This document shows positions 3 through 49,863 of a DNA stretch of 59,195 bases, one piece after another. Source of the stretch: Akkermansiaceae bacterium. Lineage in GTDB: Bacteria; Verrucomicrobiota; Verrucomicrobiia; Verrucomicrobiales; Akkermansiaceae. Positions within the stretch are counted from its first letter, which is position 1; each line of letters starts with the position of its first letter. A program made the translations under genes and the position numbers. The stretch covers positions 1 through 59,195 of the forward strand of contig CAIKDP010000375.1 of NCBI GenBank assembly GCA_903826205.1, written 5' to 3'. The notes beneath the pieces were generated by a model, which saw only the letters and a list, made by a program, of their open reading frames with translations, searched no databases and was not told the DNA's origin.

Positions 3-1715
3 CGTGGCATCGTGTTGGGCTCCGGCGGCGGTGCGTTTGACACGGCAACCTCCAACAAGACATTGACCGTGACGGGCGTCATCTCCGGCAGCGGCGCCCT
101 GACCAAGACGGGCGCGGGCAATCTAACACTCACCGGAGCCAACACCTACGCCGGTGCCACCACCGTCAGCGGCGGTACACTGGGCCTCGCGGCGGATAGT
201 GGGCTGGGAACCGCCCCGGAAGCCATCACCGCGGGGCATTTGGTGCTCAACGGCGGCACCCTGGCCGCCACCAATACCTTCGAACTCGCCAGCACCCGCG
301 GCGTCCAGCTCGCAACCACCAGCACGCTCGACGTCGCTGCCGACATGACCTTGACCTACAGCGGCGTCGTGGCCGGACCGGGTGGGCTTAACAAGACCGG
401 CACCGGTACGCTTGAGTTGTTAGGACGCAACCAATTCGCCGGTGAAATCACCCACAACGCCGGCACGCTAGTCATCAATTCCGGCATGAGTCTTGGCGCT
501 TATGTGGAAGGTGAATCCGGCGGCCAACTCGTCTTTGCCGGTACCGCCACCCTGAAACTGGCGGCGGACGTCAACGCCGCCCGCAGCTTCGTTTTCAACG
601 AAGGCGCCACGGCCACGATTGACACCGACGGCCACACGTTCGAGCAGAGCGGGGTGTTCTCCGGTGGCGGCGCGCTGACCAAGACCGGCACCGGCACGCT
701 AACTCTCACCGGCACCAACGCCAACGCCTACAGCGGCCTGACCACGGTCAAGGAGGGGGAATTGAACCTCAACAGAGCCCCCGGCACCTTGGCGGTGAGC
801 GGCGATCTAACGATCGGCGACGGCACGGGCGGAGCCAATGCCGACGTGGTGAGGCTGCAAGCCAGCGGCCAGATTTCGAGCACCGCCGTCGTGCGTATCA
901 ACGGCAGCAGCGGCAAGCTCGACCTCAACGGCAACGCCCAGGTGATAGGTTCGTTGGCGGACGCCGGCACGCTCACCGCCAATGGCAGCAGCGTGGCCTT
1001 GGGCAGCGCAGGGGCTCTGACAGTTGGGGATGCCACCAGTACCACCTTCTCCGGGGTGATCTCCGGCACCGATGGCTCCCTGACCAAGCAAGGCAGTGGC
1101 ACCTTGGTCCTCACCGGATCTAACACCTACACCGGCGCCACCACGGTCGATGCGGGGATTTTGGTGGTCAATGGCGACCAACATGCGGCCACCGGCGCGG
1201 TCGCAGTCTCCGGCACGCTCGCCGGCACCGGCACGCTCGGCGGGGCCACCACCATCAACTCTGGCGGCACCCATGCGCCAGGGGAGGTGGGCACGGTGGG
1301 TACGCAGAATTTCTCCGGCGATCTGACGTACGCTGACGGTTCGATCTTCGAGTGGGATCTCAATGAAAACTCAACGAGCAACATGGGCTATGACATGGTG
1401 GGTGCGGCAGGCAAGATCAGCGTCGATACCAGCAACACCACCTTCAGGATTGTCTTCGGTGATAGCGTCGACATGAACGATGAGTTCTGGAGCACGCCGC
1501 ACGTCACCCGCCAATGGGCGATGCACTCGATCTTTGGCAAGGCGTTCTTCTCGGGGGCTTTTTCCACCGTGGAGACCCGCGGCGCCACCGTCAATCCCCT
1601 CGGCAGCTTCAAAATCGACGGCTCGTACCTGACCTACACCACCGTCCCCGAACCGAGCAGCGTGCTGGCGGGCTTGTTGTTAGGTGCGGGCTTGCTGCGC
1701 CGCCGGCGCAACTGA
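3..1715 (+). CDS. PEP-CTERM protein with autotransporter-associated beta-strand repeats (5' partial)
   Basis: The reading frame is open to the left edge of the window, so the start lies upstream; the GTG at 12 is not a credible start. At least four copies of a repeat of the type G-x-L-T-K-x-G-x-G-x-L-x-L-x-G-x-N (autotransporter-associated beta-strand repeat) are visible at about 88-177, 380-470, 670-765 and 1070-1165. These stack into a right-handed beta helix in known family members. The C-terminus has the PEP-CTERM layout: VPEPS, a hydrophobic helix, then RRRR and the stop, which in known systems is recognised by exosortase for cell-surface sorting. No exosortase gene lies in this window. 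The passenger function is unknown; surface display or matrix is inferred. Confidence 0.9.
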   Translation, partial: RGIVLGSGGGAFDTATSNKTLTVTGVISGSGALTKTGAGNLTLTGANTYAGATTVSGGTLGLAADSGLGTAPEAITAGHLVLNGGTLAATNTFELASTRGVQLATTSTLDVAADMTLTYSGVVAGPGGLNKTGTGTLELLGRNQFAGEITHNAGTLVINSGMSLGAYVEGESGGQLVFAGTATLKLAADVNAARSFVFNEGATATIDTDGHTFEQSGVFSGGGALTKTGTGTLTLTGTNANAYSGLTTVKEGELNLNRAPGTLAVSGDLTIGDGTGGANADVVRLQASGQISSTAVVRINGSSGKLDLNGNAQVIGSLADAGTLTANGSSVALGSAGALTVGDATSTTFSGVISGTDGSLTKQGSGTLVLTGSNTYTGATTVDAGILVVNGDQHAATGAVAVSGTLAGTGTLGGATTINSGGTHAPGEVGTVGTQNFSGDLTYADGSIFEWDLNENSTSNMGYDMVGAAGKISVDTSNTTFRIVFGDSVDMNDEFWSTPHVTRQWAMHSIFGKAFFSGAFSTVETRGATVNPLGSFKIDGSYLTYTTVPEPSSVLAGLLLGAGLLRRRRN

Positions 1716-34643: not shown

Positions 34644-36380
34644 ATGAACTCCGTTAGAATCCATCCCCGGCTGCGGCTGTGGTTTTCCCGCCTCAGCTCG
34701 CTGTTGCTGCTGTTCCAGCGCTCGCCGATCATGCAACTGATTTCCCCCCAAGCCAAGATCCTCGGCGGCTCGGCCGTGCTTGACACGGCCACCTTCGCCA
34801 TCGCCACCGTCGTCGGCCTTGGCGCGTTCGACTCGGTGGCCGGGGCCACGAATGCCGTAGTACAAAAACAACCCGTGGCAAATTCAACCACCGTCAACGC
34901 TACGGTTGGAGTTGCTATGACGAATTTCGTCTATGGGATTCAAACGACCGATTCCGTTGGATCCTTCCAAATCACCTCCGGCACTCTGCCGACAGGCCTG
35001 GTCAAGTCCAACACCATCTCTAACAAAACAAACTACATCTCCGGCACCCCGGCCGCTGGGACGCAAGGCACCTATTCCATCACCATCAAGGCCTGGAAAG
35101 AAACAAATAATACCGGGCTAAACACGACGGGTACCTTCAACATCATCGTGGCAGCTGGGGCTTCAACGCCGGCCACAATTGCCACGCACCCCGCGGCCAC
35201 CAGCATCAACAGCGGTTCCTCCACCACGCTGAGCGTGGTGGCCGGCGGCACCGCGCCCTTTACCTATCAATGGTATCAGGGGTCGTCGGGGACGACGACG
35301 AGCCCCGTGGGCACCAACTCGAACTCATTCAATACAGGGTCCCTGGTAGCCACCACCAGCTACTGGGTGAAAGTCACCAATGCCAGCAATCTCACGGGGG
35401 CCAATTCCAACACCGCCACCGTCACCGTGATCCAACCGGCCGCGATCACCACGCAACCGGCTTCCCCGTCCCCCATCACCAGCGGCGGCAGCGCCGATCT
35501 CAGTGTGGTTGCCAGCGGCACCGCGCCATTGACCTATCAATGGTATCAAGGAGCGAAGGGGGTCACCACCACCAAGGTGGGCACCAATTCGAATTCATTC
35601 AACACAGGGGCTCTCATTGCCACCACCAGTTACTGGGTGAAGGTCACCAACGCGGCCAACGTTGCGGGGGCCGATTCCGATGCCGCCACCGTCACCGTGA
35701 CCACGCCGCCGCTCATCACGACGCAACCGGCATCGACGACCATCAACAGCGGCAGTACCGCCACGTTGAACGTCGCGGCCTCCGGCACTTCGCCCACGTT
35801 CCAATGGTACACGGGAAGCGTCGGTGACTATGCCAATCCGGCGGGCACGGGCCCGTCGTTCACCACGCCGCCACTCAGCACAACCACGTCGTATTGGGTG
35901 CGTGCCACCAATAATGCCGGAAGTGACAACTCCAACACCGCCACCGTGACGGTCAACACGCAAACGCCGTTTGCATCATGGATGAGCACCACCGGATCCG
36001 CGGTGGCCGCCAACCAAGCCGGAGCGCTGGACATGCCGCAGGGCGACGGCGTGCCCAACCTGTTGAAATACGCCTTCAAGCTGGATCCTAACAAACCGGA
36101 TTCCCGCAGGCTGAGCGTGGGTGGCAATGGAGTGGAAGGCTTGCCGGGAGGCTCCCCGGTTGGCGGCGTGCTGCGTCTGGAATTCATCCGGCGCAAGGCG
36201 GGCCTTAGCCCGGGTATCACCTACACCCCCCAGTTTGGCTCCTCTCCGGGAGCCTTGACCGATGCCGCGATCGTCAACCCGCCCACCTCGATCGATGCCA
36301 CTTGGGAGCGGATTGTCGTGGATGATCCGACGCCCGTCACCACCCAACGCTTCGGGCGTGTGAAGGTGACCCAACCTTGA
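34644..36380 (+). CDS. Surface protein with Ig-like repeats
   Basis: A 578-residue protein. A long hydrophobic leader (1-60) precedes a putative-Ig-type domain (about 75-165), then three Ig-like repeats of about 85-90 residues, each with TYQWYQG or FQWYTG and ending SYWVKVTN/SYWVRATN then SNTATVTV. The C-terminal part contains GDGVPNLLKYAFKLDPNKPDS, a motif often seen near the end of verrucomicrobial exported proteins. No PEP-CTERM end is present. Adhesion or matrix function is inferred from the fold. Two repeats are nearly the same at DNA level (35200-35430 and 35460-35700), which invites recombination. Confidence 0.75.
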   Translation: MNSVRIHPRLRLWFSRLSSLLLLFQRSPIMQLISPQAKILGGSAVLDTATFAIATVVGLGAFDSVAGATNAVVQKQPVANSTTVNATVGVAMTNFVYGIQTTDSVGSFQITSGTLPTGLVKSNTISNKTNYISGTPAAGTQGTYSITIKAWKETNNTGLNTTGTFNIIVAAGASTPATIATHPAATSINSGSSTTLSVVAGGTAPFTYQWYQGSSGTTTSPVGTNSNSFNTGSLVATTSYWVKVTNASNLTGANSNTATVTVIQPAAITTQPASPSPITSGGSADLSVVASGTAPLTYQWYQGAKGVTTTKVGTNSNSFNTGALIATTSYWVKVTNAANVAGADSDAATVTVTTPPLITTQPASTTINSGSTATLNVAASGTSPTFQWYTGSVGDYANPAGTGPSFTTPPLSTTTSYWVRATNNAGSDNSNTATVTVNTQTPFASWMSTTGSAVAANQAGALDMPQGDGVPNLLKYAFKLDPNKPDSRRLSVGGNGVEGLPGGSPVGGVLRLEFIRRKAGLSPGITYTPQFGSSPGALTDAAIVNPPTSIDATWERIVVDDPTPVTTQRFGRVKVTQP

Positions 36381-36444: not shown

Positions 36445-36530
36445 AACCACTGAAACACTGATGACCACTGAGATCACTGAAAACATGATGGAATCAGTGT
36501 CCTCAGTGGGTCTCAGTGTTTTCAGTGGTT
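36445..36530. repeat. Long imperfect hairpin built from CACTGA units
   Basis: The left arm (about 36445-36480) holds four CACTGA units and the right arm (about 36493-36530) four TCAGTG units; the arms pair over most of their length. It lies between the Ig-repeat gene and the DsbD-like gene. There is no clear T-tract. It may be a transcription attenuator or a small palindromic repeat family. Confidence 0.75.
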
Positions 36531-36578
36531 CAATCGGTTGATCTAACCCCAAGTAATCCGACCTGCGGGTCCACCCTC

Positions 36579-38333
36579 ATGCGCACTCCCAAACTCCTGA
36601 TCCTGTTGACGGGCCTATTTTTTGTTAGCCCGACATCCGGCCACGCCCAACTCCGCAAGATCATTGCGGAACTGGGTCCCGTGGTGGAAAGCGACGGGGT
36701 GCATGCGGGCACCCGCGTGCGTGCGGCGGTGGCGGTGAAGCTGCCGGAAGGCTTCCACATGCAGTCGAACGCGCCGCGCAATCCCCTGCTGATCCCGACA
36801 AAACTGCAACTGGATGTGCCGGCAGGCGTGCAAGTCAACGAGTTGGTGTACCCGCCCGCGCTCGATCTCAAGCAAGAGGACGTCGAACTGCCACTCGCCG
36901 TGTTTGAGCGCGAGTTCCACATCGGGGTCAGTCTAACCATCGGGGCCGATGTGCCGCCCGGCGACCTGGTCATCCCCATGCACCTGCGTTATCAAGTCTG
37001 CGACGACAGCATGTGTTATGGCCCGACCAACGTCGACACGAGTTGGTCGCTCAAGGTGGTGGCCGCAGCCACGCCCCTCACCGCGCAGAACGCCGCGGTG
37101 CTCGACAAAATTGCCTTCGGCAGCGGTCAGGCCCCGCCAAGCGCCACAGCTACTCAGCCGCCGGCAGCACCGACCGCCGCCGCAGTCAGCGGCGGGCCGG
37201 ACGCTGGCATCGGCCAGCTGGACCACTTCGTGGTTGCCAGCACCGCGGGCGGGTTTCTGGGGTCCGACGCCTTCCTCAAGTTTATCAGGAATGCCGAGGC
37301 CGACGTGAAGGAAGCCGGGATGTTCGACGGCCGCGGTCCGCTGGCGATCATCCTGATCGTGCTGCTTGGCGGATTCGCCTTGAATCTAACACCCTGTGTG
37401 CTGCCGATGATCCCCATCAACCTCGCCATCATCGGCGCCGGCGCGCAGGCCGGTTCACGGCGGCGCGGACTCATGTTAGGCGCCACCTACGGCGCGGCCA
37501 TGGCCCTCGTCTATGGCGTGCTCGGCCTGGTGGTGATCCTCACCGCCGGCAGCTTCGGCACCATCAACGCCTCGCCATGGTTCAATCTGGGGATTGCCGT
37601 GCTGTTTGTGGTGCTGGGCCTCGCGATGTTCGATGTGATCACGATCGACTTCTCACGCTGGTCGGGCAACTTCAACCCCGGCGCGCGGCGCGGCAGCTTC
37701 GTGTTGGCCTTCTCCATGGGCGCGGTGGCAGCCTTGTTGGCAGGCGCATGCGTGGCACCCGTGGTGATTCAGGTCATCCTCTTCTCCAGCAACCTCTACG
37801 CCAAAGGCACTCAGAGCGCGCTGGCGCTGCCCTTTTTCCTTGGCATCGGAATGGCCATTCCATGGCCGTTGGCGGGGGCCGGCCTGGCATCGCTGCCCAA
37901 GCCGGGTGCCTGGATGATCCGGGTGAAACAGGCGTTTGGCGCACTCATCATCGCCACCGCCCTTTACTACGGCTATCTCTGCTATGAAATATTTTCCAGC
38001 CGCACGGCGGACACCAGCCAGGTGGCATCCAGCGCCAACGAAAAACTCAAGGAAGGCTGGCACGCGTCGCTGGCCGAGGGCCTGGCGGTGGCCGAGCGCG
38101 AACACAAGCCCGTACTCATCGACATCTGGGCCTCATGGTGCAAAAACTGCCTGACCATGGACAAGACCACGCTGCAGGATGCAGGGGTGAAGGCCGCTCT
38201 GGATGGCTATGTGAAAATCAAGTTCCAAGCCGAGCAACCGGATGACGAAGCCAGCAAAGCGCTGATGCAGCGCTTCAACGCGGTGGGCTTGCCCGCCTAC
38301 GTCATTCTCAAACCCAAGCCGGCGGGCAGGTGA
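36579..38333 (+). CDS. dsbD: DsbD-type thiol:disulfide interchange protein
   Basis: A 584-residue protein with all three DsbD parts. A signal peptide (1-24) and N-terminal domain contain CDDSMCYGPTN. Eight or so transmembrane helices (about 250-480) have LTPCVLPMIP and GACVAPVVI carrying the membrane cysteines. The C-terminal thioredoxin domain has WASWCKNC with C521 and C524. It passes electrons from cytoplasmic thioredoxin to periplasmic reductases. Its position two genes after a TlpA-like protein is consistent with a shared periplasmic reduction route. An extension open to 36516 is not used; ATG 36579 has CCACCCTC before it. Confidence 0.9.
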   Translation: MRTPKLLILLTGLFFVSPTSGHAQLRKIIAELGPVVESDGVHAGTRVRAAVAVKLPEGFHMQSNAPRNPLLIPTKLQLDVPAGVQVNELVYPPALDLKQEDVELPLAVFEREFHIGVSLTIGADVPPGDLVIPMHLRYQVCDDSMCYGPTNVDTSWSLKVVAAATPLTAQNAAVLDKIAFGSGQAPPSATATQPPAAPTAAAVSGGPDAGIGQLDHFVVASTAGGFLGSDAFLKFIRNAEADVKEAGMFDGRGPLAIILIVLLGGFALNLTPCVLPMIPINLAIIGAGAQAGSRRRGLMLGATYGAAMALVYGVLGLVVILTAGSFGTINASPWFNLGIAVLFVVLGLAMFDVITIDFSRWSGNFNPGARRGSFVLAFSMGAVAALLAGACVAPVVIQVILFSSNLYAKGTQSALALPFFLGIGMAIPWPLAGAGLASLPKPGAWMIRVKQAFGALIIATALYYGYLCYEIFSSRTADTSQVASSANEKLKEGWHASLAEGLAVAEREHKPVLIDIWASWCKNCLTMDKTTLQDAGVKAALDGYVKIKFQAEQPDDEASKALMQRFNAVGLPAYVILKPKPAGR

Positions 38334-38379: not shown

Positions 38380-40902
38380 TTAGATCTTGGCGTTCTCCGC
38401 GACCGCCGCCGCCTCCGGCTTCGGCTTTTTCGCCAGCGCGGCGAGATCCACGCCCGGCAGCAGCTTGGTGAGCATGCCCATGAGGCCGTCGGCGGCGTTG
38501 CCGCCGGTGACGAGCACGTCGGGGACGATCTTGATGTTGCCCTTTTCGATGGCGGCGGCAATCAAGTCCACGATCTTGATCTGTTTGATGGCATCCTCGC
38601 CGATGGCCTGTTGTTGCTTGTTGTAGGCTTGGGCGGTGGCCTCGCCAATGGCGGCAATCTTGGACGCCTCACCATCGCCGATGGCTATCAAACGTTTGCC
38701 CTCGCCGGTGCCTTCCAGCGCCTTGGCCTCGGCGTTGCCTTCGGCCAGGGTGATCATCTCCGCCTTCTTCTGGGTGGCCACTTTGACGGCGATCTCAGAG
38801 GCGACCAGTGTCGGTTGTTGGTCGGCGGTGGCGCGCATTTTTTCCATTTCGGTGCGTTCCGCCTGGGAGCGTTGCTCCATCTTGTACATCTCCTGTTGTT
38901 GTTCGGCGATGATGCGCTTGGTCTGGGTTTGCATCAGATCCTCGGGCAGGCGGATCTGACAGATGAGCACCGACACACACTCGACATGATATCTCTCAAG
39001 ATCGGCGCGGGCGCGGGTCTCCGCCTTGGTCTGTTCTTCCGAGCGGCTTTGCAAAAAGTTCATCGCCGAGGCGGTGGACGCCTGGTTGCGGAACGACGAG
39101 TCGATCATCGGATGGATCACATGTTGGATCAGGTTGTCGATGGAACCGACCTTGGCCACCATGTAGGGCGCCTGGTCCGGGCGCACGCGAATGACCACCT
39201 TGACCGATACCTGGATCGGGAAGCCGTCCTTGGAGATGACATTCAACTGGTCGAAGCGGGTGTCTTTCTGGTCGTCCCAGTCGATGGTGATGTTGGTCGT
39301 GTCGATGACATACATCATGAAGGCGCGGCGGTTCAGGTAGTAGCGGCCGGGGCCGGCCACCTCTTCCTGGATGCCGCGAAACCCTTTGGGCACCACGTAT
39401 TTTTCCTTGCCTTCCTCTTCGGAGGCGCCGATCTGCGTCGAGCCGAGCCGCTTCTTCATCTCCGCCGTCGGGTCCTCGCCCACGTTGGACACCACCACCC
39501 CGACCTGGCCGCGCTCGATGACCGCAACGTCGTCGAGTTCCACGCTGAACATGAACGGGTTGATGTAGTAGGTGCCCGGCCGCAGCACGTCGAGTTGCGG
39601 GCCGCGCTGTCCTTGTTTGGTTAGAAACGCGGAGCCGTCCTGATAGTCGTTGTGGCCGGTGATGGGGCAGGCGACGTATTCACGATCCGGCAGCGGGATG
39701 CCGTCGAGCGCGGTGACCAGGCCGACCTTGTTAGCCTCGATGACCACGGCCGGGGCAATCTGGATTTGGAACAAATTGAGGTTGATGCGGTAAGTGCCGG
39801 GCAGCAGCACATCGATTTGCGGGCCTTTTTGGCCGCCATTTTTGAGGAAGGCCTCGCCGTTTTCGAAATTCGAGTGGTTCGGCACGCTTTGTGCCAGGAG
39901 GCGTCCCATCGGGATGGGCGCGCCGTCCTGGGCGGTGACCATGCCGACCTGGCCTTTGGCAATGACCACCGCCTCGGCATTGGTGACTTTGAAGAGTTTG
40001 GGATGAATTCGATAGACGCCCGGCGGCAGGATCTCGGTTTGCGGGCCTTTCTGGCCGCCGTTTTTGCGGAAATCCTCGCCCGCTTGGAACGAGTTGTGAC
40101 CGGCTACCACGGTGGCGAAAATGCGCCCGGCCGGAATCGCCAGGCCATCGGATGACTCTATCAGGCCGATCTCGCCCTCATTGATCTTGGTGGTGGTGCT
40201 CTTGGTGACCTTGAACAGATAGGGATTGATGCGGTAGTTGCCGGGAGGAATGATGTCAATCTGCGGACCTTTCTGCCCGCCGTTTTTGATGAAGGCTTCG
40301 CCATTTTGGAATGACGCATGGCCATCCACCGCCTGGGCAAAGATGCGGCCTTCCGGGATGGCGGTGCCGTCCACCGAATCCACGATGCCGATCTCGTAAT
40401 CCTTGATCTCGGTGACACTGCCTTTGGTTAGTTTGAACAGGTACGGATTGATCCGGTATTTGCCGGGCGGCAGCACCTCGATCTGCGGGCCTTTCTGGCC
40501 GCCATTGCGGATGAACGCCTCCCCATCCTGAAACGAATTGTGGCCCGCCACCACCGCGGCAAAGATTTTGCCGGCGGGGATGGAGGTGCCGTCCACCGAC
40601 TCGATCAAGCCGATGCCGTTTTCCAGAATCTCGGTAAACGCGCTCTTGGTCGCCTTGTAGATAAAGGGAATGAGAAAATGCAAGCCCGGGCCCAGCGTGC
40701 GTGCCTGAATGCCCACTTCGTCACCCAGCGCCACCACGCGTCCCTGAGGCATCTTGCGGCCGAACCAGCGGCGTTCGATCAGGGCGATTTCATTGCCGCC
40801 GACCACCACCACCGATTCATAGATGAGGATGGCAGCCGGAACCAACAACGCCAGCCACCCCAAATGATTCAACACGAAATTCATTAACATGCAAAAAGGC
40901 AT
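38380..40902 (-). CDS. SPFH/band-7 protein with five tandem 74-residue repeats
   Basis: An 840-residue protein (numbered from ATG 40902; ATGs at 40890 and 40884 are also possible). One N-terminal transmembrane helix (LGWLALLVPAAILIYESVVVV) precedes a degenerate repeat. Five clear repeats then begin near residues 96, 171, 245, 319 and 393, each of the form IG(L/I)(I/V)(E/D)S-x-DG-x-x-IP, GH-x-SFQ-x-GEAF, NGGQKGPQ and LPPG-x-YRINPYLFKVT; a diverged sixth begins near 467. A band-7 domain (about 505-640) and a long charged helical segment (about 620-780, ending AEGNAEAKA) follow, as in flotillins. Ordinary flotillins lack the repeats. Divergent from the next gene, no operon partner. Confidence 0.85.
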   Translation of the reverse strand: MPFCMLMNFVLNHLGWLALLVPAAILIYESVVVVGGNEIALIERRWFGRKMPQGRVVALGDEVGIQARTLGPGLHFLIPFIYKATKSAFTEILENGIGLIESVDGTSIPAGKIFAAVVAGHNSFQDGEAFIRNGGQKGPQIEVLPPGKYRINPYLFKLTKGSVTEIKDYEIGIVDSVDGTAIPEGRIFAQAVDGHASFQNGEAFIKNGGQKGPQIDIIPPGNYRINPYLFKVTKSTTTKINEGEIGLIESSDGLAIPAGRIFATVVAGHNSFQAGEDFRKNGGQKGPQTEILPPGVYRIHPKLFKVTNAEAVVIAKGQVGMVTAQDGAPIPMGRLLAQSVPNHSNFENGEAFLKNGGQKGPQIDVLLPGTYRINLNLFQIQIAPAVVIEANKVGLVTALDGIPLPDREYVACPITGHNDYQDGSAFLTKQGQRGPQLDVLRPGTYYINPFMFSVELDDVAVIERGQVGVVVSNVGEDPTAEMKKRLGSTQIGASEEEGKEKYVVPKGFRGIQEEVAGPGRYYLNRRAFMMYVIDTTNITIDWDDQKDTRFDQLNVISKDGFPIQVSVKVVIRVRPDQAPYMVAKVGSIDNLIQHVIHPMIDSSFRNQASTASAMNFLQSRSEEQTKAETRARADLERYHVECVSVLICQIRLPEDLMQTQTKRIIAEQQQEMYKMEQRSQAERTEMEKMRATADQQPTLVASEIAVKVATQKKAEMITLAEGNAEAKALEGTGEGKRLIAIGDGEASKIAAIGEATAQAYNKQQQAIGEDAIKQIKIVDLIAAAIEKGNIKIVPDVLVTGGNAADGLMGMLTKLLPGVDLAALAKKPKPEAAAVAENAKI

Positions 40903-41035: not shown

Positions 41036-44000
41036 ATGAAACCGTCCACTGCAGTGCCTCAGACCCGTGGGTTTGCCCTGGTGGTCACGCTCAGTCTGAT
41101 GGTGTTGTTGACGCTCCTGGCGGTCGGGTTGCTGACCTTGTCGAGTGTGTCGTTGCGGGCGGCCGGTCAGGATGAGGCACTGGCCACAGCGCGCAACAAC
41201 GCGCGGCTGGCCTTGATGCTGGCCATCGGCGAGTTGCAGCGCTCGCTGGGGCCGGACCAGGCGGTCACTGCCGGTTCCGAGATTCTCATGGCCACGCCCG
41301 GCAAGCCGAATCTCACGGGGGTTTGGGAGTCATGGGATTTCAACCCGGTTGGCGGGGCTCTCAACTACGGCGCGGAAAAAAACCGGCGCTTCCGCCGTTG
41401 GCTCGTCTCCAGTGCCGATCCCGCAGCGGCGGCCACCCGGGAGTTCGCCACTGCGGCATGGACCGGCGAGGCCATCGAACTCGTGGGCGACGCCGCCTTG
41501 GGCGGCAAGGCCGCGGCTGGCGCGAAAGCCGCAGCCGGCCGGGTGCCCGTCCTGCGGGACGGCAAGGTCCGTGGGGCGTTCGCCTGGCATGTGGCCGACG
41601 AGGCGGTCAAAGCCCGCATCAATCTCTATCGTGATCCCAGCCAAAACAAGACGCTGGCACAAAAACGCGCCCTGCTCGCCGGCCAGCGCCCCGATCCCGC
41701 GGTCGTCAGCTCCGCGTCTAACGGATTGGTGGATTGCCTGCCCAAGGACGACACGGCCGAGCATTTCACGGCGGCCGCTGCCAACGCCGTGAAATTCACC
41801 GATCTTGAGCAGGTGGAGTTGTATGGCCAGGCCAAGGGGCGTCTCAAGCCCTTGCGCAATGATGTGACGCCCTATTCGCTGGGCTTGCTCACGGATGTCC
41901 GCCGGGGCGGGCTCAAGCAGGATTTGTCCTCCGTGTTTGAAATGAACAGCACCCTGCCGGCCGCCTTTGCCGACAAGAAATTATACCAATCCACCCTCGA
42001 TATCACCGGCCTTTCCGACCCTTACTGGAGCGCGTTGTCAGGCTACTACAACAGCTTCCGCAACGTCACCAATGCCGACACCACCCCGGGGATGGTCACC
42101 AAGCCTGTGCAGGACGTGTTGATCACGACCCAGGCCGCGCCCACCACCTACTATCCGGGGCCGGTCATCGCCAAGGTTGAAATCGTGTTGAGCTTTGTGG
42201 TCCGTGAGTCCCACGGCATGTGGACGCCCCTGCTCACGGCGCAGAGTGCCGACCTGCGTTACATGGGGCATCTGGTTCTAACACCCCTCATCACCCTGCA
42301 CAATCCCTACAATCTCAGCCTTTCGTTCGATCAAATGGATGTGACCTTCAAGAACCTGCCGGTCGCCTTCAAGTTCTATGTCAATGGCCAGGCGCAAAAC
42401 ACCCAACTGGTGTCCTTGAACTCCCTGTATTGGGATGACAACCTCAGTCAGGACCGGGTGTTCGTCATCGGCATCGCCAATTGGTCCGATTACACTTCCA
42501 GTTCGACCGCCCGCACCGGGCCGATCGTCATGAAGCCCGGCCAAACCCTGGTGTGCGGACTTCATGTGGACCCGCAAACCATCTTTGGCGACGGTGACGG
42601 CAAGTTCATTGTCAACGACCGGGATCTCAGGGGTGAGTTTGTCAAGGCCAGCCCCGGATACAAGGGCCGTTGCGTCGGCTACGATCTGGATGTGCTTTCG
42701 CCAGTGGACTACAGCCCGCCGGAAGCCCAACAGAGCGACCGGGTGCACCGGGTGCTCGGCTTGAAACAGGACGACCGGATATCCATGGAGTTTGCCGTGC
42801 AAAAGCCCCCCAATGATCCGAGCGCGGAGTTCCAGATGCTCGCCACGATCACCTCCAATGGCGCAACCAAGAAATATGGCGGATTCAGTTTCAAATATCT
42901 GGACGATGCCACCCTCAAGTCGCTGTTTCCCAAGGTCTATCGCTACCCCGACAGCGGGGACTTCAGGGCCATCGACGCCCATGTATCTAACACCGCCACC
43001 CCCGATGCCTATATCTCCAACCATGCGCGGGCGAAAACCGTGGCGGTTTTCGCCACCTCCGCCCGCACCACCAACGGCGGTGTCTATGAAACGGGGAAGC
43101 GTACCGAGACCGCCGGCAGCGTCAACACGTTGTTAGACGGGCGTCTGGCGGGCAAGCCCTTCCTGTTTCACAATCCCGCCCGCACGGTCGTCACCATGGA
43201 CCTGAAAAAGGAAAAACCCGGAGCCCAATCCCATGAGCTCAACCTCCAGCGCTTCGCCGCCGCCGGGGCCTTCGAGGACTATCTGGTCGTGGATGCCACC
43301 AACCGCAGCCCGTATCTAACGGGAAACACCACCGCCAAGGGCATCAAGTCGGGCAGTTATCTGGAATTGCCCACCGGTCCGCTGCAAACAATCGCCGACT
43401 TCCGCCGCTCCAACGCCCTGACCTCGTTCTATCTGCCCAATTTCGTGCAGCCCGTGGCCAACTCGCTGGTCTCGCCATTGATGTCCACCGACAAGGTGAG
43501 CCAACTCGATTCGAGTGTGGCCGGCTATGCCTTGCTCGACCACTCGGTGCTGGCCAACCACGCGCTCTACGATCGGTTTTATTTTTCGACCTTTGCGACC
43601 GCGGGGAAGACCACACCGGACACGGTGTTCAGTGAATTCATGGAAGGTAAAAGGCCACTGGCGTCGCAGGCCTTCCAACCCTATCTGCCCGCCGGCAAAA
43701 CCATCGCCTCCGCCAAGGCGGAACTTTTCGCCTCCGCCAAGCCGAAAAACACCGCCTATCAGACTGCGGCGGAATACCAGATGCTCCAAGGGCCGTTCAA
43801 TGTCAACTCGACGCGCGTGCAGGCTTGGAAGGCCATGCTGGCGTCACTCAACAAGAGTCAGATGGTCACCCTTTGGGCGAAGAGTGGGGTGCTGGAAACC
43901 ACGGCCAGCACCCTTATCCCCATCCTGCCCATGTCGCTGGTCAACGGCGGTCGGATCGGCGGGGTCGTCAATGCCAGCAAAATCGATGACGCCAAAACCA

Positions 44001-44593
44001 ACGAGTGGAACGGCTATCGCGAACTCAGTGACACCGAGATCGCTGTCCTGGCCGAGAAAATCGTCGAGCAGGTGCGCCTCCGCGGACCGTTCCTCTCGCT
44101 CTCCGAATTTGTGAACCGCCAGATCGGCGCGGAATCCGACCTGACCCGCAGCGGTGCACTGGAAGCGGCTATCAGCCAGGCCAAGCTCAACGACAAGGCC
44201 TTCGCCACCCAAGTTCCAATCACCGTGGCCGACGTGACCAACGCCATTTTATACAACTACAAGACCCCGACGGCAGCCACCGGCAACCCCGCGGCAGGAG
44301 CCCCGGGCTGGATCTGCCAGGGGGATCTGATGCGGCTCCTCGAACCGGCCGCGACGGTGCGTGCCGATACCTTCGTCATCCGCGTTTGCGGTGAGGCATG
44401 GGGTGCCGACGGCAAAGTGAGCGCCCGCGCCTACGCTGAAGCGGTGGTGCAACGCTTGCCCGAATATGTGGATCCGGTTGACCGCCCGTCGTTGAATGCA
44501 GCCAGCGATACCAAGGCGGCGCCGATGAACCGGACTTTCGGCCGACGCATGAGCGTGAGGTCATTCCGGTGGCTTAACTGCAATGAAATCTGA
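41036..44593 (+). CDS. Verru_Chthon cassette protein A
   Basis: An 1185-residue protein whose N-terminus (GFALVVTLSLMVLLTLLAVGLLTLSSVSLR after a short basic leader) is a type IV pilin/PilX-like prepilin helix. The rest is a large extracellular domain with W, F and Y spread through long beta-rich stretches. This fits the Verru_Chthon cassette protein A family known from Verrucomicrobia, which in cassettes is accompanied by B, C and D pseudopilins. Here no B, C or D gene follows; only an exported protein overlaps its stop (TGATG). It may act with pseudopilins encoded elsewhere in a secretion machine. Confidence 0.85.
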   Translation: MKPSTAVPQTRGFALVVTLSLMVLLTLLAVGLLTLSSVSLRAAGQDEALATARNNARLALMLAIGELQRSLGPDQAVTAGSEILMATPGKPNLTGVWESWDFNPVGGALNYGAEKNRRFRRWLVSSADPAAAATREFATAAWTGEAIELVGDAALGGKAAAGAKAAAGRVPVLRDGKVRGAFAWHVADEAVKARINLYRDPSQNKTLAQKRALLAGQRPDPAVVSSASNGLVDCLPKDDTAEHFTAAAANAVKFTDLEQVELYGQAKGRLKPLRNDVTPYSLGLLTDVRRGGLKQDLSSVFEMNSTLPAAFADKKLYQSTLDITGLSDPYWSALSGYYNSFRNVTNADTTPGMVTKPVQDVLITTQAAPTTYYPGPVIAKVEIVLSFVVRESHGMWTPLLTAQSADLRYMGHLVLTPLITLHNPYNLSLSFDQMDVTFKNLPVAFKFYVNGQAQNTQLVSLNSLYWDDNLSQDRVFVIGIANWSDYTSSSTARTGPIVMKPGQTLVCGLHVDPQTIFGDGDGKFIVNDRDLRGEFVKASPGYKGRCVGYDLDVLSPVDYSPPEAQQSDRVHRVLGLKQDDRISMEFAVQKPPNDPSAEFQMLATITSNGATKKYGGFSFKYLDDATLKSLFPKVYRYPDSGDFRAIDAHVSNTATPDAYISNHARAKTVAVFATSARTTNGGVYETGKRTETAGSVNTLLDGRLAGKPFLFHNPARTVVTMDLKKEKPGAQSHELNLQRFAAAGAFEDYLVVDATNRSPYLTGNTTAKGIKSGSYLELPTGPLQTIADFRRSNALTSFYLPNFVQPVANSLVSPLMSTDKVSQLDSSVAGYALLDHSVLANHALYDRFYFSTFATAGKTTPDTVFSEFMEGKRPLASQAFQPYLPAGKTIASAKAELFASAKPKNTAYQTAAEYQMLQGPFNVNSTRVQAWKAMLASLNKSQMVTLWAKSGVLETTASTLIPILPMSLVNGGRIGGVVNASKIDDAKTNEWNGYRELSDTEIAVLAEKIVEQVRLRGPFLSLSEFVNRQIGAESDLTRSGALEAAISQAKLNDKAFATQVPITVADVTNAILYNYKTPTAATGNPAAGAPGWICQGDLMRLLEPAATVRADTFVIRVCGEAWGADGKVSARAYAEAVVQRLPEYVDPVDRPSLNAASDTKAAPMNRTFGRRMSVRSFRWLNCNEI

Positions 44594-49254: not shown

Positions 49255-49355
49255 TTCGGTGATTCGCTATAAAATCATCAAGTGTGGAGGTGAGGAACCG
49301 GCGCTGGAAAGATTTGGCCATTGAGTGCCGCAACAATCCCGGATTGACCAGGGGC

Positions 49356-49390
49356 CAGAGGTCAGAGGTCAGAGGTCAGAGGTCAGAGGG
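49356..49390 (+). repeat. Heptamer tandem array CAGAGGT
   Basis: Four exact copies of CAGAGGT (49356-49383) and a fifth with one change. Heptamers are not a multiple of three; the array is outside any gene and could vary in number between strains. Confidence 0.9.
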
Positions 49391-49477
49391 TGGATTGGCG
49401 CTGAATTGCGGGCAGTGGGGCCAGGGCTTTCGGTTGACTGGGCCAATTCGTAATTCAAAATTCAACACAAGGTTCAA

Positions 49478-49545
49478 TATAATGCCAGTCATTATGTAAT
49501 TGACACTGGTGTCGAATATATAATGCCAGTCATTATATTTTTGAC
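49478..49545. promoter_or_regulatory. Two direct copies of a 27-bp operator-like unit
   Basis: Units 49478-49504 and 49519-49545 share 18 identical bases (TATAATGCCAGTCATTAT) and a TTGAC at the same offset, 41 bases apart start to start. Each contains the inverted repeat ATAATG/CATTAT. Between them is GACAC/GTGTC. TATAAT and TTGACA look like promoter boxes, but at 13-base spacing, so a repressor site over a promoter or a multi-copy binding site is possible. Confidence 0.6.
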
Positions 49546-49863
49546 GACGGTGGCGAAATTCGATTTTCTTGCAGCATGAAAACGCCGAATCATTGGTTGG
49601 GAGTGCTGAATTGCGTGTCGGGTTAGGGTAGTGTCAGGTGGCGGGGCACGGCGGGCGCGGCGTGGCGTGGGATACGCCCGCCATAGCGGAAGGCATAACG
49701 CTGCGGAAGGCATAGCGCTGCGGAAGTGTATCGATGGTGGTTGGTTGGGGATGGGAAGACCCGCGGGAATAGAGCTTGATTAAGCCAATTACTCGGGCGG
49801 TGGGCGGCAGGGGTGGATCCGCGCTGGACAAAGCGGGCGGGCTCTGGCATGCCCTCGGGCCGC

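Follow-up and report, generated by a model that had tools for sequence, protein, structure and literature searches.

Can a wall of the kind known from the eukaryotic vault stand on a bacterial membrane? The question is raised by a gene at 38380-40902 (minus strand) of contig CAIKDP010000375.1 (assembly GCA_903826205.1, an Akkermansiaceae bacterium), analyzed here over a stretch of 59,195 nucleotides, hereafter the window. The encoded protein carries a membrane anchor, tandem repeats, an SPFH domain and a long helix, an order that, from the repeats onward, the original prediction had likened to that of major vault protein (MVP), and which is confirmed by the hydrophobic window, Pfam and a structure model. 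We consider it likely that the protein forms a tall, cytosol-facing, membrane-anchored SPFH cage, the wall of which would be lengthened by tandem SPFH1/vault-repeat modules, with the height set by module number. The module is an amplified SPFH1/vault-type unit, because the last repeat is SPFH1 itself and because the SPFH1 of ordinary SPFH proteins comes next after MVP in the fold search. By any sequence test made, on the other hand, the protein is not an MVP, and it is to be filed as an SPFH scaffold. The gene is organized in the following parts.

38380-40902, minus strand: whole gene, 840-residue membrane-anchored SPFH protein with tandem vault-type modules (open reading frame (ORF), Pfam, Ka/Ks)
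40801-40869, minus strand: single predicted transmembrane segment, about residues 12-34 (hydrophobic window 17-35; model helix 14-30; K/R bias)
40639-40812, minus strand: diverged N-terminal unit, about residues 31-88, without insert (hhalign; MVP R1-R7 alignment starting at residue 29)
40417-40638, minus strand: repeat unit 1, residues 89-162 (repeat self-comparison)
40195-40416, minus strand: repeat unit 2, residues 163-236 (repeat self-comparison)
39973-40194, minus strand: repeat unit 3, residues 237-310 (repeat self-comparison; folded with units 4-5, predicted local distance difference test (pLDDT) 93.8)
39751-39972, minus strand: repeat unit 4, residues 311-384 (repeat self-comparison; units 3-5 model)
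39529-39750, minus strand: repeat unit 5, residues 385-458 (repeat self-comparison; units 3-5 model)
39295-39528, minus strand: terminal copy, the SPFH1 part of the SPFH domain, residues 459-536 (hidden Markov models (HMMs); several SPFH structures align from residue 459)
38947-39294, minus strand: SPFH2 or shoulder-like alpha-beta core, residues 537-652 (Band_7 at 512-680; stomatin superposition)
38545-38943, minus strand: long helical region, residues 654-786, cap-helix-like, of low confidence (model helices)

The 840 residues are read from an ATG at 40902, with the stop codon, included in the coordinates, at 38380; translation could also start from an in-frame ATG at residue 5 or 7, and close orthologues, for example L037, begin near residue 6. 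Band_7 (PF01145) is matched by Pfam at residues 512-680 (E 1.6e-24, 87.4 bits against a cut-off of 23.6), as it is in 70/70 aligned members (E up to 10). A single membrane segment is found, near the N-terminus, with residues 17-35 as the best 19-residue hydrophobic window, and a clear segment precedes the SPFH domain in 99 of the 101 members tested. The rest of the chain is predicted to lie in the cytoplasm, the repeats included, because positive residues (K/R) after the segment outnumber those before it; the same bias is present in 99/99 members with a clear segment (105 rows, 6 dropped for late or doubtful starts).

The five 74-residue repeats were confirmed to be in register, with pairwise identities of 0.35-0.69. 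The best ungapped self-match occurs at an offset of 74 with a score of 968 (residues 60-398), compared to a maximum of 48 among 200 shuffles, which excludes chance periodicity as the source of the repeats; a 222-bp period is also present in the DNA according to Tandem Repeats Finder (TRF). The motifs proposed to be shared by all units are more restricted: NGGQKGPQ is exact in units 1-4, whereas unit 5 reads KQGQRGPQ, and LPPGxYRINPYLFKVT is nearly full in units 1-3, and only there. Each full unit holds an insert of approximately 24 residues (GHxxFQxG..F..xGGQKGPQ), with a short helix in the predicted model, and its conservation (0.61) is about equal to that of the surrounding strands (0.56-0.57) in 25 dissimilar copies.

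Diverged copies had been anticipated at both ends of the array. The C-terminal one is well recovered, as residues 460-529 match the five-unit HMM in register (14.3 bits, E 0.0015 for 1000 sequences), and an HMM of the pre-SPFH copies of the family yields 20.6 bits at the terminal copy of the window protein. The N-terminal one (about residues 31-88) is not significant with the five-unit HMM (-0.1 bits), whereas a profile-profile comparison with hhalign, of 103 N-terminal segments against 280 repeat copies, supports it with an E of 2.3e-11 (five column-shuffled controls gave E 0.05-0.85). Across the family, the pre-SPFH-copy HMM matches the start of the SPFH domain in 104/104 members with three or six detected copies (3.3-23.1 bits), compared to 46/104 reversed and 53/104 shuffled controls, at most -0.2 bits; these 104 segments were located with an HMM also trained on such copies, so that their borders are not independent. 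The match spans at least 50 positions in 25/104, namely all 24 rows of the long form, the one with five full units (16.2-23.1 bits), and one other, and E for 1000 sequences is below 0.01 in 30/104 members and below 1 in 89/104. For the family as a whole, hhalign aligns the pre-SPFH copies to SPFH1 with a pairwise E of 3.4e-13. Judged from sequence, the copy that closes the array is the SPFH1 subdomain. This is firm for the long form; taken one row at a time the short forms support it more weakly, and for them the assignment leans on hhalign. The weakness in single rows leaves the fold match of the repeats unaffected.

The whole chain was modelled with AlphaFold2 using a 70-row alignment (69 of 80 scan loci; the 11 left out are the truncated L055 and ten removed for size or redundancy). 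The mean pLDDT is 75.4, with most ten-residue blocks across the five units between 80 and 93, and helices are found at 14-30, 654-730, 734-767 and 769-786. In a Foldseek search against PDB, MVP takes ranks 1-12 of 219 matches (E 1.9e-17 to 1.4e-13), with prohibitin and HflC next, and crystals of MVP R1-R7, from which the shoulder is absent, match the model as well (E 8.4e-8 to 1.8e-6, target-normalized template modelling score (TMt) 0.57-0.60). With VIA-align, residues 29-536 of the model superpose on MVP R1-R7 (3gf5_B) over 342 of 380 residues at 4.6 Å (Z 11.5), placing seven units on seven. The stomatin SPFH domain 4fvj_B fits the core (Z 13.1, 114 residues at 2.7 Å), and prohibitin 8rrh_A aligns to the whole model with Z 15.1 over 230 residues, at a root-mean-square deviation (rmsd) of 19.5 Å over the long chain.

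To exclude the SPFH core as the driver of the MVP match, units 3-5 (residues 237-458) were folded alone, using 76 rows, i.e. a 90-row tiled set (90 of 100 stretches, with tiles from 13 of 22 untruncated long orthologues) minus 14 rows of one tile set with a MAFFT register slip. This repeats-only model reaches a pLDDT of 93.8 and a predicted template modelling score (pTM) of 0.87, and MVP fills ranks 1-13 of its 102 Foldseek matches. MVP likewise occupies ranks 1-13 of 32 in VIA-align (Z 6.9-9.2, 149-153 residues at 2.8-3.3 Å), with the three 74-residue units superposing on 158-161 MVP residues (165-322 or 112-272). Ranks 14-29 are SPFH proteins (prohibitin, erlin, HflK/C, flotillin, stomatin and QmcA; 40-45 residues at 0.9-2.8 Å, Z 5.7 to 2.7), mostly matched within residues 1-75 of the model, with prohibitin reaching 141, and the tail consists of two unrelated chains and one more SPFH row (Z 2.1-2.4). 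The likeness to MVP, offered originally as a structural inference, hence stands as one, with MVP heading both Foldseek lists; monomer prediction and fold search gave the opposite of a fold unrelated to MVP repeats, the outcome named in advance as speaking against it. In the models the module resembles an SPFH1 unit and an MVP repeat alike, apart from approximately 24 extra residues in every full unit. Among 50 of the 78 matches listed from a BFVD fold search with the repeats (E up to 10), no convincing multi-unit match was found, the best being a Pandoravirus protein at E 0.69; yet phages encode relatives by sequence. Separately, the SPFH2 region (window 38947-39294) matches a small-subunit chain of archaeal and eukaryotic ribosome structures over 90-98 residues at 1.9-3.7 Å (Z 9.7-10.8).

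How could such a chain operate? The transmembrane segment, the seven beta units that follow it in a row (one diverged, five full and SPFH1) and the SPFH2 core are seen in the sequence or predicted with confidence, and the long helix is predicted with low confidence. Known SPFH complexes are rings and domes, most of them placed against membranes (PMC12624060), and by analogy with HflK/C, QmcA, stomatin, flotillin and MVP many chains may pack side by side into a ring, while the long helices may bundle into a cap as in known SPFH cages and MVP. The stacked units would then constitute a cylindrical wall between membrane and shoulder, proportional in height to module number and differing by whole units among relatives, and the resulting tall dome, anchored at its base, would enclose a patch of inner membrane and some cytosol. 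The approximately 24-residue insert, repeating up the wall, is a candidate lateral contact or binding surface, and our guess from other SPFH cages is that the assembly might keep membrane proteins or lipids confined or protected. The passage from a modelled monomer to a ring is one that we infer; if it holds, the protein would work like a half-vault on a membrane.

Several observations weigh against this cage. Approximately 24 residues of each full unit are absent from MVP. The whole model has a pTM of 0.56, with pLDDT 62-63 in two of five models, and the long helix and C-terminus are of low confidence (pLDDT blocks of 50-69 in the helical region). Compared over the whole chain, the MVP structures that Foldseek places at ranks 1-12 reach TM-scores of 0.21-0.30 with an rmsd exceeding 30 Å, which we read as different domain orientations in the model, and in VIA-align the whole model retrieves SPFH proteins at all of ranks 1-22, with MVP from rank 23. 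For the repeats-only model, E values at Foldseek ranks 1-13 are modest (6.5e-3 to 6.6e-2), none of the 102 matches attains E ≤0.001 and the best query-normalized score (TMq) is 0.46, while the VIA guidance holds that repeats with Z under about 13 may share only a common arrangement. AlphaFold2 was trained on PDB, which holds MVP. Sequence searches point the same way: no Vault/MVP Pfam family appears for the 70 members at E up to 10, among 25 of 27 families listed, and PDB sequence searches with the single protein and with the 70-row profile did not retrieve MVP. Finally, no conserved neighbour hints at a cargo or function, in an analysis where neighbours were clustered, not all named, and NfeD not sought by name. 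Counting ORFs of at least 90 residues in flanks of up to 6 kb, the most shared neighbour is present in 4 of the 23 close loci, and around the 57 distant loci a single cluster of neighbours, found at 7 of them, reached the threshold of 6.

Band_7 is the sole Pfam family of the window protein at E up to 10, there is no MVP among its NCBIfam matches, and the 70-row profile retrieves flotillin-2 and HflC from PDB, the flotillin-2 match (profile positions 436-589 of 633, E 2.3e-6) lying towards the helical part and not over the repeats. The MVP_shoulder model matched nothing in the window's own genome or 288 genomes of its phylum, nor in 247 genomes of the phylum of the genome carrying L088, and as no control genome matched in either search, absence is not demonstrated. 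A likeness to fucose-binding lectins (residues 30-107, E 0.007-0.05) was set aside as weak, with no stretch passing alone.

Relatives differ in module number, with every count from 1 to 5 full modules before SPFH1 seen when bacteria, phages and plasmids are taken together. A genome-contig scan, from which 80 of at least 570 relatives were kept, recovered 23 with 85-94% identity, of which 22 are complete and one, L055, is truncated where its contig stops, and 57 with 33-36% identity. The query alignment of this and a second collection scan was built from loci of the genome search. Among the bacterial rows (105; 103 distinct), five full units and SPFH1 are present in 24, two and SPFH1 in 80 (L029 among these only partly read) and none in the fragment L030; five full units are kept in 24/24 close members, one of them incomplete at the border of its contig. 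In the Geomonas family, two genomes (L117, L118) show three full units and SPFH1. On predicted viral contigs (80 of 85 kept), two units and SPFH1 occur in 73 and four and SPFH1 in four (L126, L127, L184 and L196, the last three giving the same hits), while three are contig-end pieces. The family thereby extends to the phage sequences L122, L123 and L124 and to the predicted viral contigs L126-L205, several of 250-580 kb: the Ackermannviridae Vibrio phages L123 and L124 have one full module and SPFH1, and the 642-kb uncultured phage L122 (LR756502.1) has two. Rhizobium plasmids carry members annotated 'flotillin family protein'.

The 28 genomes reached through loci have one family gene each (E up to 1e-10); four show two rows, which are pieces of one frame in three and include a separate C-terminal fragment in G384. 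At L119, L120 and L121 there are short fragments of the C-terminal end, with 81-84% identity to portions of residues 710-832, alone in two genomes and, at L119, 1.4 kb from an intact copy; this looks like loss or partial duplication. In the window's own order, 24/112 genomes, its own included, have a member (E up to 1e-20), with the long form only in the window's genome, and no member was detected in three other searched genomes of its genus. Carriers include isolates by record title, Geomonas and Paludibacterium for the long form and Pedobacter for the short.

Compared to the window, 22 orthologues show Ka (nonsynonymous divergence) of 0.041-0.121 and Ks (synonymous divergence) of 0.60-2.42, which shows the long form to be under purifying selection, with any transfers not very recent. 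This excludes a pseudogene, and the Ka/Ks of the minus-strand frame supports taking the overlapping plus-strand ORFs as probable shadow frames. Over 23 rows, window included, 30-residue blocks at 91-450 have a mean identity to the window of 0.81-0.96. Based on 70 rows and on the part of the chain that runs from the SPFH domain to the C-terminus, a tree places the 23 long-form rows on one side of a branch with 100% Shimodaira-Hasegawa-like approximate likelihood ratio (SH-aLRT) support, although inner support on that side is mostly weak. By group these rows are Thermodesulfobacteriota (14), Verrucomicrobiota (3), Pseudomonadota (2), Myxococcota (1) and without group (3, the window among them). 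In the family of the Geomonas oryzae genome (G368), 16/48 genomes match, of which 12 have the long form, 2 three units and 2 a C-terminal piece only. The two Pseudomonadota loci with the five-unit form, L051 and L042 (a Paludibacterium purpuratum strain and one metagenome-assembled genome (MAG)), are taxonomically far from the other carriers. Such a patchy distribution of the long form over phyla, in entries titled as isolates as well as in MAGs, suggests that it was transferred horizontally and lost, although a bin may contain stray contigs. Contamination as the source of the window gene was rejected, considering the GC content of gene (0.60) and window (0.62) and three other Verrucomicrobiota MAGs that carry the gene, an argument in which neighbours were not placed taxonomically.

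Could the repeats instead be a flexible or elongated stalk, lifting an ordinary SPFH ring off the membrane without packing laterally into a closed wall? Such spacer domains vary in copy number, as the repeats do between relatives, and the extra inserted residues could block vault-like packing. However, stacking of the units as in a vault is predicted with high confidence in the repeats-only model, the units superpose on three or seven consecutive MVP repeats, and the identity of blocks 91-450 is tight for a mere spacer, so we regard a stalk as unlikely. Still less probable, in our judgment, is that the protein is an ordinary bacterial flotillin- or HflC-like protein with an enlarged N-terminus of no special meaning, despite the annotation of the plasmid-borne relatives and the weak sequence matches to HflC and flotillin-2, for the five full units are retained in all 24 close members under purifying selection, and flotillin, stomatin, prohibitin and HflK/C cover 40-45 residues of the repeats-only model where MVP covers about 150.

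A different alternative leaves the cage intact and concerns its history. We give slightly better than even chances to a parallel origin, in which SPFH1 was amplified independently here and in MVP, so that the likeness says little on vault origin. Congruent with this, the copies are similar in sequence to the SPFH1 of their own protein and in fold to that of other SPFH proteins, MVP was not retrieved by any sequence search, and copy number shifts inside the family, even within one bacterial family (three versus five full units). These shifts favour separate amplification over one shared array, at least in part; yet without detectable sequence similarity no tree can decide, and a shared ancestor with few modules is possible. 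At less than even odds, the protein may be a membrane-anchored half-vault, of a bacterial and phage family in which vault wall module and SPFH-cage anchor coexist, the ladder of one to five modules recording the passage from plain cage to vault-type cage. If true, the 'unique' MVP domain of the vault would be an amplified SPFH1, and vaults a derivative with the anchor lost and end-to-end pairing gained.

Returning to the membrane-anchored cage, its proposed parts can be set beside those of known systems. The eukaryotic MVP has the same succession of tandem beta repeats, SPFH-like shoulder and long helix, and at the level of predicted fold the tandem MVP-fold repeats preceding the shoulder superpose three on three and seven on seven. 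MVP differs in having nine repeats of about 53 residues, compared to five full and two diverged units in the window protein, the full ones of 74 residues with a conserved insert; in addition, no sequence similarity was found, and the family is bacterial and phage-borne. MVP assembles into a 39-fold half cage that pairs N-terminally into a 78-mer. MVP is moreover a soluble particle with no membrane-anchoring motif, unlike the window protein with its predicted N-terminal transmembrane anchor. As PMC13347060 describes, the N-terminal part of MVP is the surface where half-vaults pair, and we would expect the anchor to preclude end pairing of this type. With the membrane SPFH cages (HflK/C, QmcA, stomatin, prohibitin, erlin and flotillin) the protein has in common Band_7 with an SPFH1 and SPFH2 core, a membrane anchor before the SPFH domain and a C-terminal helical region, but those show one SPFH1-sized match to the repeats-only model, where the window protein has five more full copies and a diverged one between anchor and SPFH1. 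The shorter relatives ('flotillin family protein') of Bacteroidota, Verrucomicrobiota, Armatimonadota, Rhizobium plasmids and phages belong by sequence to the same family along most of their length (about 25-39% identity) and share anchor, insert and core; unlike the window protein, they mostly have two full units and SPFH1 (80/105 bacterial rows; 73/80 predicted viral contigs).

In a 2026 paper (PMC13100048), MVP domains are called 'unique to the vault', and the present family argues against this. Among the titles and abstract starts listed from open-licence literature, a search with most subscription papers outside it, we found no bacterial or phage SPFH protein with vault-type repeats. The models suggest that vault-type walls exist also in bacteria and large phages. 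The function and origin of the vault are open questions. This family is a system of simple genetics in which the role of vault-type walls can be addressed, and the view of vault repeats as amplified SPFH1 modules can be tested in it directly.

In the window, the gene is convergent with a DsbD-like gene (36516-38333) and divergent from an ORF of 1185 residues (41036-44593, plus strand), which opens with a pilin-like hydrophobic stretch (GFALVVTLSLMVLLTLLAVGLLTL) and has no NCBIfam match at E up to 1e-4. The same search gave no match at that threshold for an ORF of 578 residues (34644-36380, plus strand) with a 270-bp tandem repeat (approximately 90 residues; 79% matches, TRF), possibly representing Ig-like surface repeats. 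Further along, at 49349-49557, a heptamer array (CAGAGGT) and a 41-bp repeat in two copies are located before a valine--tRNA ligase gene.

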